The position numbers and the translations under genes are program-made. Below are positions 2,091-9,504 of a DNA stretch of 64,000 bases, piece after piece. The notes beneath the pieces are model-generated. The model saw only the letters and a list, made by a program, of their open reading frames with translations, made no database searches and had not been told where the DNA came from. Each line of letters begins with the position of its first letter. Position 1 is the stretch's first letter. The DNA is from Paraburkholderia phenazinium (lineage in GTDB: Bacteria > Pseudomonadota > Gammaproteobacteria > Burkholderiales > Burkholderiaceae), in the NCBI RefSeq assembly GCF_900142845.1, contig NZ_FSRU01000001.1, positions 124,001-188,000 of the forward strand. The letters are read 5' to 3'.

Positions 2091-3023
2091 ATGCCGCAAT
2101 CCCGGATCACCCTGCGACAGCTCGAAGCATTTCTGGCGACCAGCGACGAACTCAGCTTCGCCGCCGCGGGTGAACGGATGGGGTTGACGTCGTCGGCCGT
2201 CAGCCAGCTCGTAGCGGAACTCGAATCGGTGCTGGGGTTTCGTCTGTTCGACCGGACCACGCGCCGGGTGAATTTGTCGAGCGCGGGCCGGGATTTCATG
2301 GCGTCCGCCGAGTCGGTGCTGAGATATTTGCGCGCAGCGGAAACGACGGCGGACGATTTACGCAACCGCGCCGCAGGGATCGTGCGCGTCGGCGCACCGC
2401 TCATTCTGGCTGCCACAGCGCTGCCCGCCGCGATCCGGGATTACGCCAAGGTGATGCCCAAAGTCGTGGTCCGTATTCGCGACACGCCCGTCGACGCGCT
2501 CGTCGAACGTGTCGCGAGCGGCGACGTCGATCTGGCAATAGGTCCCAACCGGCCAACCGCCGCCACCGTCGAATCGCTGCCCGCGTTCGACAGTCCGTGG
2601 GTCCTGTGGTGCAGTCCGGGCATCGCGCTCGCCAAGCGCAAACGCGTATCGTGGGCGGATTTGCGCAGCATCCCGCTTGTCGCAGCGGGCAGGGATCATG
2701 AAATGAGCGTGGCGCAGATGCGCAGCAGCGCGCCTCCCGATGCGCGCATCGTGCCCATCGATGTGGTCGACAACATCACCACGGCGCTCGGAATCGCGGC
2801 GCATGGCCTCGCGGCGACGCTCGCACCTCAATACGTAGGCGTGCTCGCCGAGGCGTTCGGGCTCACCATGCGGCGCGTCGTCGATCCGGAAACGATCCGG
2901 CAGGTGTGCGTCTACCGGCCCGTCAGACGTGCAAGCTCGCCGGCAGCCGACGGATTTCTGGCTTACCTGTTGGACTGGCTGCGGAATTGGCAACACGCAA
3001 CGGGGCAAACGCGAGCCAGGTAG
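2091..3023 (+). CDS. LysR-family transcriptional regulator
   Basis: A 310-residue LysR-type regulator. The N-terminal winged helix-turn-helix spans residues 5-65 (RQLEAFLATSDELSFAAAG, then SAVSQLVAELES and LFDRTTRRV), followed by a linker helix and an inducer-binding domain from about residue 90. The start has GGAG seven bases upstream. It is transcribed away from hpaH, the classic layout of a LysR regulator controlling its neighbour. This would be unlike E. coli, where an AraC-type HpaA and a MarR-type HpaR do the job. Its ligand is not predictable, and control of the hpa operon is an inference from position. Confidence 0.88.
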   Translation: MPQSRITLRQLEAFLATSDELSFAAAGERMGLTSSAVSQLVAELESVLGFRLFDRTTRRVNLSSAGRDFMASAESVLRYLRAAETTADDLRNRAAGIVRVGAPLILAATALPAAIRDYAKVMPKVVVRIRDTPVDALVERVASGDVDLAIGPNRPTAATVESLPAFDSPWVLWCSPGIALAKRKRVSWADLRSIPLVAAGRDHEMSVAQMRSSAPPDARIVPIDVVDNITTALGIAAHGLAATLAPQYVGVLAEAFGLTMRRVVDPETIRQVCVYRPVRRASSPAADGFLAYLLDWLRNWQHATGQTRAR

Positions 3024-3099: not shown

Positions 3100-3903
3100 T
3101 TACGTCTTGCGTTGCAGGAACGACGAAAGAAAGGCCGCGAGCAGCGGATCGGTCACCATCGTGGTGCCGGCATTCGGTTGTGCGGTGATGACCTTCAGCG
3201 CGCGCTCGTGGTAAGCCAGCGCGGCGGTCCTCGCCGCCTTCGGATCCTTCGCCTCGATCGCCTTCAGAACGCGCTGCCGCTCCTTGCCGATCGACCCCGT
3301 GGTGGCCCGCCAACTCTCCACGGTTCCGCCGGACAATTCGCGGGCAAGGCCGATCTGGAGACTCGTAAAAAACCGGCAGAGCGCGGCAAGCAGGGGATTC
3401 CCGGATGCCTGCCCGATTTCGCCGACGAACGCGCTGACAGCGCCGGAAATGCCCTCCGCGCTGTCGCCGTCCTGGATCTGCCGCAAGGCTTGCCGCATGG
3501 CCTCGATGTCTTCCGCCGTCGCGTGCTTTGCGGCCAGTTCCGCCGCATACGAGATCAGCGCCCCCAGCACGCCGAGCACCTGCGGCACACCGATGCGCTC
3601 GATCTGGATCATCGAGGAAAGCGACGCCGCGATCAGTTGATCGGTCTGTGCCGTCACATAGGCGCCGCTTCCATGCCGAACCTCGATGAGCTGCGCCGTG
3701 ACGAGTCCGCGCACGGCTTCGCGAACAGTCGCGCCGCTGACCCCATAGCCTTCGGCCAACTGCTTTTCCGTGGGTAGCTTGGTCCCGCGTGGCAACTGTC
3801 CGCTCAAGATGCGATCGCGCAAATCCTCAAGGATCTGTTCCGCAGCATTGCCACGCTCAAGACGTTTCGAAGGTTGCCAATCGGGGCCGGTCGCATCAGA
3901 CAT
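3100..3903 (-). CDS. GntR-family (FadR subfamily) transcriptional regulator
   Basis: A 267-residue FadR-type regulator. A GntR winged helix lies at residues 18-85 (EQILEDLRDRILSG, LPTEKQLAEGYGVSGATVREAVRGL, VRHGSGAYV), followed by an all-helical FCD-like effector domain. The start at 3903 has an AAAGGAG site. A TATAAT hexamer (3928-3933, minus strand) is followed upstream by the perfect palindrome at 3942-3958, so the protein probably represses its own promoter and the divergent cupin operon. The same palindrome recurs before the gene at 9165, which makes the two converging operons the probable regulon. FadR-type proteins usually bind an organic acid; the ligand here is unknown. Confidence 0.9.
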   Translation of the reverse strand: MSDATGPDWQPSKRLERGNAAEQILEDLRDRILSGQLPRGTKLPTEKQLAEGYGVSGATVREAVRGLVTAQLIEVRHGSGAYVTAQTDQLIAASLSSMIQIERIGVPQVLGVLGALISYAAELAAKHATAEDIEAMRQALRQIQDGDSAEGISGAVSAFVGEIGQASGNPLLAALCRFFTSLQIGLARELSGGTVESWRATTGSIGKERQRVLKAIEAKDPKAARTAALAYHERALKVITAQPNAGTTMVTDPLLAAFLSSFLQRKT

Positions 3904-3927
3904 GAATTCTCCTTTTCTGCCAATTGC

Positions 3928-3933
3928 ATTATA
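3928..3933 (-). promoter_or_regulatory. -10 element of the gntR promoter
   Basis: Read on the minus strand the bases are a perfect TATAAT, 25 bases upstream of the gntR start. The 17-bp palindrome lies 9-25 bases further upstream, across the spacer and -35 zone. No good -35 hexamer is seen at 17 bases. Confidence 0.5.
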
Positions 3934-3939
3934 CTGATT

Positions 3940-3958
3940 TCAAGTCACCTGGTGACTT
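3940..3958. promoter_or_regulatory. Operator of the GntR regulator, copy 1
   Basis: The core AAGTCACCTGGTGACTT (3942-3958) is a perfect 17-bp palindrome with 8-bp arms. The 19 bases 3940-3958 recur identically at 9192-9210. This copy lies between gntR and the divergent cupin operon, 39 bases from the gntR start and about 100 bases from the cupin start, with an extra GTGAC half-site just downstream. FadR-type repressors bind short palindromes of this size. The role as operator is inferred from the exact repeat and its two promoter positions. Confidence 0.8.
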
Positions 3959-4059
3959 AGTGACAAATTAACTATGGCTGCCGGTTGTGCGCCGGCCGGG
4001 TTTATTGCCGCGACTGGGCGCAACGCGCCGCATCCGCGGATCCGATCAAAGGAGGATGC

Positions 4060-4962
4060 ATGAAAATCAAACACTTCAGCGACACCGACTGGCATAAGGA
4101 CCATCCTACTGGAATCGTCGTATTCCAGTACTGTCTCGAAGGTGACGATCCGATGTCCCCGGAAAACTTCATGCTGGTGCTCGGACGGCAGGACGGCGAC
4201 TTCCACATGCCCCGCCATCGGCACAATTTCGAGCAGATCCGTTTGCCGCTTGTCGGCGACATGAACATCGGCGACGGCCTCAAACTGAAGGAGGGACAAG
4301 TCGGATATTTTCCCGAAGGACAACCGTACGGTCCGCAGGACGACCCACTCGGCAAGACGCCGCCGGGAGAGCGTCTGCAACTCGTCCTGCAGTTCGGCGG
4401 TTCATCGGGCTGCGGCTTCATGAGCATGCAGCAACGACTGGCCGCGCGAGACGAACTCGCGAGGATCGGCGAATTCGTCGGTCCCAACTACCGCCATCCG
4501 AACGGCAAGCTCGAATGGGGTCTCAACGTGATCTGGAAGCACGTCTTCGGCGAACGCCTGAAGTATCCGATGCCCCGTTACCCCGGCGTCGTGATCGCCG
4601 ATCCGAGCCGATTCAACTGGATACCCGTGCAAGGCGCCAAGGGCGTGTCGAACAAGTTTCTTGGTTCGTTCTCCGAACGTGCCGCGTGGACGGAACTGGT
4701 CAAGCTCGCGCCGGGTGCCACGTGGACGTCCACGCATGAAACGGCACGACGGCTCCTGTTCGTGACGGGCGGCAGCGGCACGGCCGGCGCGGAAGCGATC
4801 GGGCTCTACGCGTCGATCCAGACGGAGCCCGGTGAAACCATGACGTTGACTGCCAAGGACGAACTGCAGATCTTCCTGATGGGCTTGCCGCCGATCGTCA
4901 TCGAGCAAGACAGCGAGGCCGAGTTCGAATTCGTTGACGGAGAGGCCGATGACCGCGTTTGA
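4060..4962 (+). CDS. Cupin-domain protein of unknown function
   Basis: A 300-residue protein, first gene of the plus-strand operon of the GntR unit. Residues 45-95 form a cupin barrel with a metal-like motif H53-x-H55 and E58. The second cupin motif (GYFPEGQPYG) lacks the usual metal His, so either the metal site is unusual or the role is in binding. A second, degenerate cupin half follows at about 195-290. The start at 4060 is preceded by a near-perfect AAAGGAGG site; a longer frame from 3985 has none. It overlaps the next gene by 14 bases. Cupins in catabolic operons are often dioxygenases, isomerases or sugar-acid enzymes; the reaction here cannot be named. Confidence 0.75.
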   Translation: MKIKHFSDTDWHKDHPTGIVVFQYCLEGDDPMSPENFMLVLGRQDGDFHMPRHRHNFEQIRLPLVGDMNIGDGLKLKEGQVGYFPEGQPYGPQDDPLGKTPPGERLQLVLQFGGSSGCGFMSMQQRLAARDELARIGEFVGPNYRHPNGKLEWGLNVIWKHVFGERLKYPMPRYPGVVIADPSRFNWIPVQGAKGVSNKFLGSFSERAAWTELVKLAPGATWTSTHETARRLLFVTGGSGTAGAEAIGLYASIQTEPGETMTLTAKDELQIFLMGLPPIVIEQDSEAEFEFVDGEADDRV

Positions 4963-5356
4963 CCTCGCATCCATCGAGCGCTTGCTCAGCGATTTCGCCT
5001 GGTGTGCCGATCGTGGAGATGGCGCCGGGCTGGCGCAGCTCTTCGTCGCGGACGGTGTGCTCCATCTGGGTGAGCGTGAGTTCGTTGGCCGCGCGGCCAT
5101 CGCGAGGGACTGCGAGGTGCGTGCAAGCACACCTGGCCGGAAGACGCGGCACGTCTGGTCGAATCTGCGCGTCGTGCGCAGAGAGGAAGCCAGCGCGAGC
5201 CTGACCGCGGTGCAGCTCACCTTCGAGCAGCGTGGCGACGATGTGCCCGCCGAACTGCGGATCAGCGACCTGCGCGATGACGTCTGCAAGGATGCCGACG
5301 GTGCCTGGCGCTTCTCGCGCCGCGTCATCCAGCGCCAGATGACGCTCCCGATGTAG
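4949..5356 (+). CDS. SnoaL-like / NTF2-fold protein
   Basis: A 135-residue protein of the NTF2/SnoaL fold. It opens with an IERLLSDFAWCADRGDGAGLAQLF helix-turn typical of this fold, then LHLGEREFVGRAAIARD, and ends with a Trp-Arg-Phe strand that closes the cone. Family members are small hydratases, isomerases, dehydratases or ring-hydroxylating dioxygenase beta-like subunits. The start at 4949 has GGAGAGG just upstream and overlaps the end of the cupin gene, implying translational coupling. An upstream TTG at 4934 is possible but lacks a ribosome site. With the cupin protein it is the likely enzyme core of the operon; the reaction is unknown. Confidence 0.72.
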   Translation: MTAFDLASIERLLSDFAWCADRGDGAGLAQLFVADGVLHLGEREFVGRAAIARDCEVRASTPGRKTRHVWSNLRVVRREEASASLTAVQLTFEQRGDDVPAELRISDLRDDVCKDADGAWRFSRRVIQRQMTLPM

Positions 5357-5439
5357 CGGGCTGCGCGGCGAACCATTGCGGGCCCGCCTTGGCGCGCGTC
5401 GGGCAGGCTCGTTCTTTCATCCAACACGAGGGTCGCTTG

Positions 5440-6180
5440 ATGGATTCGCTCGTTCTTCAACAGCTCGCGCCTCACGGCGTGCTGCGTACGGGCATCAACC
5501 TTGCCAATTTTCTGCTCGTGGGCCCCGCCGACGCAAAAGGTCATCGGACCGGGCTCGGGCCGGAATTCGCCCGTATGATCGCGTTGCGGTTGGGTGTTCC
5601 GTTTACCTGCGTGCCCTTCGTATCGCCGCGCGAACTCGCCGACGCGGCCAACCGCGATGCCTGGGACATCTGCCTTATCGGCGCGGAGCGCGACCGTGCG
5701 CAGACGATCGCGTTCACCTCAGCCTATCTCGAGATCGACGCAACCTGCCTCGTGCACGCCGAATCGCCGCTAATGTCCGCACAGACGCTCGACCGCGCCG
5801 GCGTCAGCATCGCGGCCGCAACCGGCAGCGCATACGAGCTGTGGCTGACGCGGCACATGAGGCACGCGCAGTTGCTGCGCGCGCCCACGCACGATCACGC
5901 GTACGAGGCATTTGCGCAGGGAAAAGCGGATGCCCTCGCCGGGCTCAGGCCGCGGCTCCTCCGCGACGAATCAACGCTTGCCGGCGTGAGATTGCTCGAC
6001 GGATGCTTTACCGCGGTCCAGCAGGCGGTCGGCACCCATCTCCAGCACGAAGCAGGCGCGGCGTTCCTCGAACGCTTCGTCGAGGAAGCGAAGGCCTCGG
6101 GCTTGATTGACGAGCTGATCGAACGTCACCAGGTACGCGGCGTTCGCACTGCCCCGCTCCTGTCCTCCAGCAGCCGTTAA
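5440..6180 (+). CDS. Solute-binding-protein-like domain without signal peptide
   Basis: A 246-residue protein of the family 3 periplasmic-binding fold (amino-acid binding or cyclohexadienyl dehydratase-like). Typical pieces are LRTGINLANFLLV near the N-terminus, LGPEFARMIALRLGVPF, the WDICLIGAERDRA strand and an EAFAQGKADALAG segment before the C-terminal lobe. There is no signal peptide, so it is probably cytoplasmic, and no ABC permease or ATPase is nearby. It may therefore be an enzyme or ligand-binding accessory rather than a transporter part. The start at 5440 (MDSLVLQQL) was preferred over 5389. It closes the plus-strand operon, 83 bases after the SnoaL-like gene and facing the HbpS-like gene. 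Confidence 0.7.
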   Translation: MDSLVLQQLAPHGVLRTGINLANFLLVGPADAKGHRTGLGPEFARMIALRLGVPFTCVPFVSPRELADAANRDAWDICLIGAERDRAQTIAFTSAYLEIDATCLVHAESPLMSAQTLDRAGVSIAAATGSAYELWLTRHMRHAQLLRAPTHDHAYEAFAQGKADALAGLRPRLLRDESTLAGVRLLDGCFTAVQQAVGTHLQHEAGAAFLERFVEEAKASGLIDELIERHQVRGVRTAPLLSSSSR

Positions 6181-6258
6181 GGCCACCCACGGCGACGGAG
6201 CAAACGCTCCGCCCGCCGCGTCGGTACCGCTACGCATCGAAACCGGTCGGCGCCGGGA

Positions 6259-6690
6259 TCACGTCACATCGGCCTGCAGGCCTGCCCTACCGATCCCACG
6301 CATCGCGCAGGCCTCATCCTTGTCGGGATGGTCCCCGCTGATGCCGACCGCGCCAACCACATTACCCTGTGCATCGCGGACCAGTACGCCGCCCGGCACC
6401 GGCGCGATACGTCCACCGGAGATGTCCGTCAGCGCGGCATAGAATGCGGGCGCGCTAGCCGCCCGCTCGGCCAGCGTGCGTCCTCCGTGCCCCATGCCTA
6501 ATGCGCCCCACGCCTTCGCCTGGGCAATCTGGGGACGCAGGATGCCGCTGCCGTCTTCACGCTTCAGTGCCAACAGGTGGCCACCGGCATCGAGCACGGC
6601 GACGGTCAGCGGATGACAACCAAGCTCCCGCGCATGAGCGAGCGCGGCGTCGACGATGACCGATGCCTGATCCAGTGTAAAAGTTTGCAT
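6259..6690 (-). CDS. HbpS/GlcG-like protein (DUF336)
   Basis: A 143-residue member of the heme-binding HbpS/GlcG family. It carries AVLDAGGHLLALKREDGS near the N-terminus, the RIAPVPGGVLV loop and GAVGISGDHPDKDEACA, the three segments that define the family. Such proteins often lie in catabolic operons for aromatic or glycolate-like compounds, and their biochemical role is poorly defined. The start at 6690 was chosen for homology; the ribosome site is weak. It is the last gene of the minus-strand operon porin-MFS-HbpS and ends facing the plus-strand half of the same unit. Confidence 0.8.
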   Translation of the reverse strand: MQTFTLDQASVIVDAALAHARELGCHPLTVAVLDAGGHLLALKREDGSGILRPQIAQAKAWGALGMGHGGRTLAERAASAPAFYAALTDISGGRIAPVPGGVLVRDAQGNVVGAVGISGDHPDKDEACAMRGIGRAGLQADVT

Positions 6691-6777
6691 GGTGTGTATT
6701 GGCTCTCGAAGAAAAAAGCAGCATGAGCGGGGGCGACGCTTCCTGCTCATGCCGGACATGCAAGGGCACGGTCCTGC

Positions 6778-8157
6778 TCAACCCGCATGACGCGACGCCG
6801 CAGCGCTCGCTCCGTACTCCGGCGCGCCATCGGATTGCGGCTGCCGGACACGCAGCACGAAACGTCCGATGGCAAACGAAGTAATCGCTGCGCCAAGTGA
6901 GGTCGCACCGACCAGCAGAAAGAGCGCCGAAGGCGCCATGCCCGCGGCCAGCAACACGCCGCCGAGGACAGGGCCGACGATGGCGCCGATCCGGCCCACG
7001 CCCATCGACCAGCCGATTCCCGTGGCACGGGAGAACGTGTCGTAGAACGCCGCACACATCGCAACCGTGCAAATCTGCGCCCCGATGCTGAAGAATCCCG
7101 CAATGAAGGCAACCGCTCCCAGCAGCGTGCCCGACGCAGCCGCCCGGCCTATCAATGCGATCGCGATCGCGCCAAGCAGGAAGCCGCATCCGACCACACG
7201 CGCCGTGCCGACACGGTCCGCAAGCCGCCCAAGCACGATGCAGCCAAATATCGAGCCGAAGTTCAGCATCGAAGCCGCCCGGACCGCACTCCCAATACTG
7301 AGCCCGTTGTGCCCCGCGACAACCGGCACCCAGTTGACGAGAAAATACGTCAGCAACAAGCTCAAGAACAACGTGATCCACAACAGGACCGTACCTAACG
7401 CGCGCCCCTCCCTGAACAGATTGACAACGGGCGTGCGGGCACCATGCCCAATGCTGGGCGCTTCACCGCTCCATTCGAATTCCGAACGCATGCGCCGCAG
7501 CAAACGGGTGATGGCTTTGCGATCGCCGCGCAACTCGAGAAAACGGGCGGATTCGGGCGCGAACGCGATCAGCAGAGGAATGGTGAATAACGGCAGCACA
7601 CCACCGACGACAAATACACTTCGCCATCCGACCGCGGGAATCAATTGTGCGGAGACGAACCCGCCAATGACCGCGCCCAGCGGGAAACCGCAGAACATGG
7701 TGGTGACGAGCGTTGCACGCAATCGCTTTGGCGCATATTCGGAGGTGAGAGAGACGAAGCACGGCAGCGCGCCGCCCAGTCCAAGACCCGTGACAGAACG
7801 CGCCGCCGTCAGCGAAGACAGCGAATCGCACAACGGCGTGAGCAAAGACCCGATCGAGAAGAGCAGAACCGTGCCCAGAAGAACGGGCTTCCGGCCAAAC
7901 CGGTCGCCCGTGATGCCGAAAACAATCGCGCCAAGCAAGCCACCCAGCAAACCCGCACCGAATACTGGCCCGAAGGCCGCGGGCGCCACATGCCAACTTC
8001 CGACGATGGCCGGCGCCACGAACGCAATCGTCTGCGTATCGCACCCGTCAAGCATGGCTACGAGTCCGCACAACGCCATGATCGAGATCTGAAAGCGGCT
8101 CACAGGGCTCGCATCGATGATCGATTCGAGGTCCAGCTTCACGGCGTTTTGCATCAT
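6778..8157 (-). CDS. MFS transporter, aromatic acid:H+ symporter (AAHS) type
   Basis: A 459-residue, 12-helix major facilitator. The first helix carries LDGCDTQTIAFVAPAI, matching the DGxD motif of AAHS carriers such as PcaK, and the loop between helices 2 and 3 has GDRFGRKPVLL. The N-terminal LESIIDASPVSRFQ segment is also typical of that subfamily. An AAGGAG site spaced for the ATG at 8157 or 8154 argues against the longer frame from 8217. It lies between the outer-membrane channel and the HbpS-like gene in one minus-strand operon, and probably moves the unit's organic acid across the inner membrane. The substrate is unknown. Confidence 0.87.
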   Translation of the reverse strand: MMQNAVKLDLESIIDASPVSRFQISIMALCGLVAMLDGCDTQTIAFVAPAIVGSWHVAPAAFGPVFGAGLLGGLLGAIVFGITGDRFGRKPVLLGTVLLFSIGSLLTPLCDSLSSLTAARSVTGLGLGGALPCFVSLTSEYAPKRLRATLVTTMFCGFPLGAVIGGFVSAQLIPAVGWRSVFVVGGVLPLFTIPLLIAFAPESARFLELRGDRKAITRLLRRMRSEFEWSGEAPSIGHGARTPVVNLFREGRALGTVLLWITLFLSLLLTYFLVNWVPVVAGHNGLSIGSAVRAASMLNFGSIFGCIVLGRLADRVGTARVVGCGFLLGAIAIALIGRAAASGTLLGAVAFIAGFFSIGAQICTVAMCAAFYDTFSRATGIGWSMGVGRIGAIVGPVLGGVLLAAGMAPSALFLLVGATSLGAAITSFAIGRFVLRVRQPQSDGAPEYGASAAASRHAG

Positions 8158-8220
8158 CCATCTCCTTTCGTCAGGCGAGAACGCTGACTCTTTTGCACCG
8201 GCAATCATGCGACTCACCGG

Positions 8221-9165
8221 CTAGAACTTGAAACCGACGTTGGCGTACACGTGGTATCCCTTAGTGATCGTGGCCGCGTCCGTTGGTACGTTGCCGCCGG
8301 TCGCGCTTGCAAGCACATCCTTCGTCGCCGACAGGCCCAGTACTACGCGTCCAAAGTTATAGCTGACCTGGCCGCCCACTGCGAGCAGGTTATAGCGATC
8401 CGTCACGATGGTGTTATGGTAGAAAGCGCTGGACGTGTCATTGCTGATCTGCCCCACGTAGGTCAACACGGGCCCGACGGACCATTGTCCAAACGACTTG
8501 GTGGCGGCAAGGTCCGCATGCAGGATGTCGCCTGTCCGATAGCCGGTGTACGTGTTCGCGGTGTTGAATTCCGTCGAGAAGTTCGCCGTCACGTGCCAGC
8601 CGAATCTCAGGTAAGAAACACTCAGCGAAGGCTGAATGATCCACCACGGGTTGCCGATATTGCTGAGTCCCGCCGCCCCCGTGATGGTGCCGTCAGGCAC
8701 CACCACGGCAAGACCGGTCTTCACGTAGAGGCCGGTATTACCGAGTTGCCAGCTCAACTGGGCGGGCGAGATCACCGTATTGTGCAAGCCCGACTTACTG
8801 CTGTTAATCGGGGCGCCCGCATCGGCCATGGTGGCCGGCTGCAGGAGCATCGCCTCATAATTGGCGCCGAGAAAGGTCCAGCCGGGAGACCAGAGAAGCG
8901 CTGACACGGCTGTGACCACATCGACCGAGGTCGTCTGCTTGTCGGCGCCCGGACCGGTTGTGCTCGTCTGCTGGACATATATCTGGTTGAAGCTGTAGAA
9001 GCCCGGCTGCGGCTGCGGTGCAGCCGTCATGCCCAACGTCGCGCCCGGTGGCATCGACCAGCCCGGATATCCCGGCTCGTAAGCGTGCGCCGGCGTCATC
9101 CCGATGCCGCAGACGAGGCTGGCTGCGCTCAGCAGCCAGCCGCGCAGTTTCCCTGCATGACCCAT
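8221..9165 (-). CDS. Outer-membrane channel, phenol-degradation MetA type
   Basis: A 314-residue beta-barrel with a signal peptide (about residues 1-28, ending AHA). The mature part has the YSFNQIYVQQTSTT opening and alternating aromatic strands ending GYHVYANVGFKF, with a terminal Phe as needed for barrel assembly. It matches the Phenol_MetA_deg/SphA-like family found in operons for aromatic compounds. The start has a GGAGGAG site. It heads the minus-strand operon, and the shared palindrome 9194-9210 lies 29-45 bases upstream of its start. It probably carries the substrate across the outer membrane for the MFS carrier encoded next. Confidence 0.82.
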   Translation of the reverse strand: MGHAGKLRGWLLSAASLVCGIGMTPAHAYEPGYPGWSMPPGATLGMTAAPQPQPGFYSFNQIYVQQTSTTGPGADKQTTSVDVVTAVSALLWSPGWTFLGANYEAMLLQPATMADAGAPINSSKSGLHNTVISPAQLSWQLGNTGLYVKTGLAVVVPDGTITGAAGLSNIGNPWWIIQPSLSVSYLRFGWHVTANFSTEFNTANTYTGYRTGDILHADLAATKSFGQWSVGPVLTYVGQISNDTSSAFYHNTIVTDRYNLLAVGGQVSYNFGRVVLGLSATKDVLASATGGNVPTDAATITKGYHVYANVGFKF

Positions 9166-9191
9166 GTCTCCTCCGATTTATGTTTGACTCA

Positions 9192-9210
9192 TCAAGTCAC
9201 CTGGTGACTT
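9192..9210. promoter_or_regulatory. Operator of the GntR regulator, copy 2
   Basis: The 19 bases are identical to 3940-3958, with the 17-bp perfect palindrome at 9194-9210. On the minus strand it lies just downstream of a TACACT hexamer (9218-9223) that could be the -10 element of the porin-MFS-HbpS operon, so binding would block transcription start. No other copy was noticed in the window by eye. Confidence 0.8.
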
Positions 9211-9504
9211 GGTATCGAGTGTAGCGCGACTAAAAGCGATCCGAAAGGAGTCCGGGACACGGTGTTTTCCCGTAGATTGAGCGCAGCAGCCGGATTCGGC
9301 GTCGCCGCGGTGCCTGCACCGATCCGGCAGGTTCGAGGCGGAGGTGTGTCGTATCATGGGTTGAAAGGCAAACCACTTTCGACGGGCATCGCGTTGATCG
9401 CGTTGATTCACCGACCGCGCGAAAGGTCGCCAACCTCACCGAACTTCCGTCCGTAACTTGCGGCAGCAGCGAGTGGCCGCGTGCACCCACAAAGGAGATT
9501 GAGC
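9211..9504. other. Divergent intergenic region, porin operon / PEP mutase-like gene
   Basis: With the operator, 339 bases separate the two divergent genes. I see a candidate minus-strand -10 at 9218-9223 and a small tandem CGCGTTGAT repeat near 9390-9407, but no convincing gene; the short frames here lack ribosome sites. Confidence 0.5.

Follow-up and report, generated by a model that had tools for sequence, protein, structure and literature searches.

In a 64,000-nucleotide stretch of the Paraburkholderia phenazinium genome (contig NZ_FSRU01000001.1, positions 124,001 to 188,000; this whole stretch is the window referred to below), we found a gene for a GntR regulator beside two converging operons, with a copy of the same palindrome at each outer end of their genes. 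A single inducer-released GntR repressor acting at both palindromes would very probably switch the two operons, and probably its own gene too. The circuit logic would be that of an ordinary local repressor, a reading well supported by comparison with relatives, and the operator and the recognition helix are unusual for the FadR subfamily.

Results

The same 19 bases, TCAAGTCACCTGGTGACTT, are present at 3940-3958 and 9192-9210, as direct comparison within the window confirmed for an earlier note on this DNA. They contain a perfect 17-bp palindrome of 8+1+8 bases with a single central base, AAGTCACC-T-GGTGACTT. The putative operator 1 (3942..3958) lies in the gap between gntR and the cupin gene, and the putative operator 2 (9194..9210) precedes the porin operon; no strand is assigned to either. 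At up to three mismatches the window matches the palindrome in exactly these two places (mean of 0.14 in 100 shuffles, one of which reached two). The genome-wide search that the note had proposed was run on all three contigs (8,526,942 bases) and returned two exact copies, none with one or two mismatches and five with three; a reversed control pattern matched eight places at up to three mismatches. The palindrome is unique to the two sites genome-wide, which excludes a 19-mer scattered through the genome, the outcome that the note had named as fatal to its proposal, and given this uniqueness a chance repeat was also dropped. A search for more regulon members with the 15-bp core at up to two mismatches proved too loose (105 places in the genome versus 163 for the reversed control) and was abandoned; at one mismatch the core has three places. 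An extra GTGAC box stands 8 bp past the right half of operator 1 (GTGACTTAGTGAC, window 3952-3964), and PMC4494728 reports GntR sites with neighbouring half-sites 7-12 nt away.

The gntR gene (3100..3903, minus strand; 267 aa) points away from an operon on the plus strand that encodes a bicupin protein (4060..4962; 300 aa, PF12973), a SnoaL-like protein (4949..5356; PF13577) and a protein with a family match to SBP_bac_3 (5389 or 5440..6180). Running towards this operon on the minus strand are the genes for an outer-membrane porin-like protein (8221..9165; PF13557), an AAHS-like MFS carrier (6778..about 8157 or 8217) and an HbpS-like protein (6259..6690; PF03928). The two operons converge and their six structural genes all lie between operator 1 and operator 2, the layout that had been described before. 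With start codons picked by eye, operator 1 is 38 bp from the ATG of gntR and 101 bp from that of the cupin gene, and operator 2 is 28 bp from the porin ATG. A horizontal island was considered from base composition and dropped, as the cluster has 63.2% GC compared with 62.0% for the window.

Altogether, 13 sites from eight genomes precede genes of the same kinds. Four of these genomes have a pair of converging operons between two sites, and in two of the four the gene content is different. P. susongensis (L024; L068 is the same contig and was counted once) shares the seven genes and their order, at identities of 70-87%, and has both sites, with one mismatch in operator 1 and two in operator 2. 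Single sites, placed ahead of the operon's first gene or in the gntR/cupin gap, accompany gntR, cupin and the first part of SnoaL in a betaproteobacterial metagenome-assembled genome (MAG; L025), SnoaL, cupin and HbpS in a Rhodospirillales MAG (L027), and a shortened aldolase, a porin piece, MFS, HbpS and cupin in P. elongata (L030). A cupin-protein scan of the contigs of named genomes covered 29 loci and 354,492 bases; at up to two mismatches these held five sites, whereas 40 shuffled half-site palindromes averaged 0.1 and never exceeded 1. Sites were present in four of the seven loci with a cupin identity above 50% and in none of the remaining 22.

A different kind of cluster was reached by DNA alone. 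An operator-only search of 299 genomes of the family (17-mer, at most one mismatch) matched three genomes, the bacterium's own included, and the third site outside the own genome (G296) opens a cluster related to that of the window. Site 1 is followed by an HpcH-type aldolase, a small cupin, a porin (58%), an MFS carrier (60%) and HbpS (72%); next come SnoaL (54%) on the opposite strand, a second site (two mismatches) and gntR (59%). Two converging operons thus lie between two sites, the arrangement of the window with different genes inside. The layout is repeated in G775, which like G706 was reached with the GntR protein as query, with two and one mismatches in its sites. All genes of the G706 cluster run in one direction and SnoaL is absent; its sites precede the aldolase gene (one mismatch) and gntR (three mismatches), the latter directly, with no divergent gene there. 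These three genomes have the HpcH-type aldolase and small cupin in place of the bicupin, and the set that is stable across clusters consists of GntR, MFS and HbpS, mostly joined by porin and SnoaL. GntR relatives at E <=1e-45 are rare, being found in two of 399 genomes of the order when at most six candidates were scored per genome, in five of 144 of the genus (own genome included in both counts) and in one of 60 of the genus of G296.

The site is also coupled to one group of GntR proteins. It stands beside gntR for the window GntR and the five orthologues examined (L024, L025, G296, G775 and G706), whereas three clade-B paralogues examined had no 17-mer within four mismatches (L023) or within three (L069, which is G779, and L072, which is G710). 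In a 14-row tree, the six site-bearing and three site-less proteins are split by a branch with a support of 99/100. The clade-B cluster of the own genome (L023; G000:C1:645000-660000, at about 647.7-656 kb) resembles that of the window in holding MFS (two genes), SnoaL, HbpS, bicupin and a GntR of 55% identity together, but differs in the LysR gene before gntR, the recognition helix and the missing 17-mer. Just before the LysR start, L023, L069 and L072 all carry ATTTCTAATAT, and a CCATGCAGGG-type sequence is common to L023 and L072. A more distant GntR (L060 in G668; 45%) begins its helix with S-G-P-T as does the window GntR; the 17-mer was not found there within two mismatches. Two copies of ACCTAGTCACTT are present in L060, at 5005 and 5988, one before an aldolase gene and one before an MFS gene, and may perhaps be the operator of this relative.

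The promoters were compared by taking the best hexamer against TATAAT on the structural-gene strand at the 13 sites, a scoring that had no shuffle control. At nine sites the hexamer matches five of six bases and either lies 4-6 bp ahead of the site or shares 4 bases with it, and both porin promoters have TACACT (four of six) 7 bp ahead. In the window, the -10-like TATACT (3931..3937, plus strand) is 6 bp before operator 1 and faces the cupin gene, with overlapping bases reading TATAAT on the minus strand towards gntR; the -10-like TACACT on the porin strand (9218..9223, minus) is 7 bp before operator 2. Both elements are kept in P. susongensis. A protein bound over or just past a -10 element normally blocks polymerase, and from operator 1 it should do so at both promoters. 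The leader between the site and the cupin gene folds strongly in P. susongensis (7902-7999, z -3.11). A terminator in this leader was considered and dropped, since the hairpin is strong there and not in the window (z -0.81).

The structural proteins give some indication of what the regulon handles. The porin and the MFS carrier suggest that the compound taken up is carboxylic and perhaps aromatic. An AAHS carrier had been proposed, and the protein is AAHS-like, with a score that stays below the curated cut-off (TIGR00895, 363.9 versus 418.55 bits). The bicupin, for which a confident model was predicted (mean pLDDT 92.5), has the motif HRHNF-(E/D)-QIR, including Q59 and R61, invariant in 71 aligned relatives. 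The binding-like protein does belong to the SBP family, which is large (5160 matches among 8000 scored candidates), and its R86 does not vary across an alignment of 44 rows; judged by eye it has no evident signal peptide, and it is therefore probably cytosolic. In cyclohexadienyl dehydratase, the catalytic Glu is near a D-x-x-E segment; this segment aligns with GLRPR in the SBP-like protein, where that Glu is not found. Beside the LysR gene, adjoining the regulon and outside it, are two genes of the lower homoprotocatechuate pathway on the minus strand, encoding HpaI (4-hydroxy-2-oxoheptanedioate aldolase; 299-1069, 382.3 bits, cut-off 368.8) and HpaH (2-oxo-hept-4-ene-1,7-dioate hydratase; 1078-1881, 438.3 bits, cut-off 351.5).

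Discussion

We propose that the GntR/FCD protein, presumably dimeric, binds the two 17-bp palindromes. At operator 1, it would repress the cupin-SnoaL-SBP operon and probably gntR as well; at operator 2, it would cover the -10/start region and so repress the porin-MFS-HbpS operon. Release of the protein by an inducer, probably the imported compound or its product, would turn on the genes for entry (porin, MFS) together with those for breakdown (cupin, SnoaL, HbpS). One repressor very probably controls the whole cluster, because the site at its two ends is found again in relatives, ahead of the same genes. It is likely that the repressor also controls itself, and the G706 site, which precedes gntR in a place with no divergent gene, argues for autoregulation. 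The earlier note had also assigned both operons to one regulator, and this part of its proposal is strengthened by the conserved sites, their positions and the gene content of the relatives; its organic-acid effector and its FadR-type palindrome fared less well, as discussed below.

Several results weigh against this proposal. The sequences of the 13 sites were partly chosen by similarity. At up to three mismatches, the control on the 29 cupin loci is noisy (mean 1.35, maximum 11, versus five sites). The reversed control matched six of the 299 genomes of the family compared with three for the true pattern, which is no enrichment, and the count from that search therefore proves nothing by itself; of the three sites that it found in other genomes, two (L020 and L021) lie in 3-kb loci with no relative of a cluster protein. 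No GntR was recognised on the examined DNA of L027 and L030, though each has a site. The GntR groups were separated equally well in 21 of 500 label shuffles, and several inner forks of the tree are open. An exact GTCAC-N3-GTGAC core is present in the "site-less" L023 (9067-9079), between the MFS and LysR genes. Finally, a good -10 is missing from the scored strand at two of the 13 sites (L071 on the gntR strand, and L027), and a consensus promoter scan of the window found no promoter at either site, with poor -35 boxes.

Three other explanations were weighed. The two dimers could cooperate by forming a loop that encloses the 5.2-kb cluster, as the persistence of two strong sites at the outer ends in four genomes might suggest; however, two converging operons with one site each would have outer-end sites anyway, and G706 keeps two sites although its genes all run one way, which makes a loop unlikely. 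It is slightly less probable still that GntR binds both sites as an activator, or as a repressor of one operon and an activator of the other: the sign of regulation cannot be read from sequence alone, but most of the promoters have the site overlapping the -10 or immediately after it, where a bound protein would normally obstruct polymerase. Least probable of all is that the palindromes belong to another regulator such as the LysR protein encoded at 2091-3023, whose gene is a neighbour of gntR, as a LysR gene also is in the clade-B clusters, since the sites flank gntR itself in G296 and G775 and directly precede it in G706, the site tracks the GntR group on the tree, and searching the conserved clusters for the window LysR gave nothing better than a 22% match in L061, which lies 12 kb from gntR.

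With GntR as the repressor of both operons, the system offers a small, clean test case of one regulator, two identical sites and seven genes, with natural variants in relatives. The near paralogues differ in both recognition helix and operator, and would allow a pairwise comparison of how GntR/FCD proteins choose their DNA without the usual Arg-G contact. The regulon also unites poorly understood HbpS-like, SnoaL-like, bicupin and signal-less SBP-like proteins as one functional unit, and their common substrate should therefore be findable by a growth or induction screen.

The regulator belongs to the FadR subfamily (PdhR, LldR, GlcC, FadR) by its domains, a winged helix (PF00392, 70.9 bits, cut-off 27) followed by FCD (PF07729, 47.2 bits, cut-off 24.3), and PdhR- and LldR-type chains are among its solved relatives. 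Histidines in the FCD domain bind metal and are usual in many members of the subfamily, without defining it. Those of the FH and EH motifs in 2di3 and 9jpj (PdhR/LldR relatives) align with Val and Arg in the window GntR and are also replaced in L024, L025, L061 and L023; L060 keeps FH. The first of these structures, 2di3, is LldR (PMC4494728). The FCD domain of the window GntR being without the PdhR/LldR histidines, an organic-acid effector, which the earlier note had drawn from the FadR type, is not simply inferable.

The operator departs from the subfamily as well. In the 13 sites, which were picked by similarity, G, T, A and C (-6, -5, -3 and -2) and T, G, A, C and T (+3 to +7) are invariant, giving a conserved core of GTCAC-N3-GTGAC. 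According to PMC4494728, FadR-subfamily sites are usually TKGT/ACMA, with GT and AC 2-3 nt apart and with exceptions that include NanR and BioR, and divergons of the subfamily likewise have one site separating the regulator gene from the operon. The window operator contains none of GT-N2-AC, GT-N3-AC and GT-N4-AC: the short palindrome expected of a FadR-type protein is there, and perfect, without the usual spacing. FadR and AraR contact bases mainly through an Arg of the recognition helix (Arg45 in FadR, contacting G; PMC4494728). In this column, where Arg45 of FadR was placed by reading Table 1 of PMC4494728, the window GntR has Gly, the sole one when the best 30 of the genome's 63 GntR-domain matches are compared; the others have Arg in 23 cases, Lys in 2, Val in 2, Gln in 1 and Ser in 1.

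With about equal odds either way, these features may mark a clade of the FadR subfamily that gave up the recognition-helix Arg and GT-N2/3-AC, reads a palindrome of opposite polarity, (A/T)AGTCAC-N3-GTGACT(T/A), with AC and GT flanking the dyad, and responds to an effector other than a metal-chelated carboxylate. If so, FCD regulators would include a different recognition code, tied to a widely reshuffled porin/MFS/SnoaL/HbpS/cupin module. This regulon did not come up in the literature searches made here. A known member of the subfamily for comparison is HypR of Streptomyces coelicolor, a regulator connected with hydroxyproline. In PMC6608401, HypR is described as binding zinc and its motif, CTNTGC(A/C)ATGTCAC, as having no clear symmetry, unlike the window system with its perfect palindrome and without the aligned histidines; however, the motif has the same GTCAC end, and HypR is both a repressor and an autorepressor.

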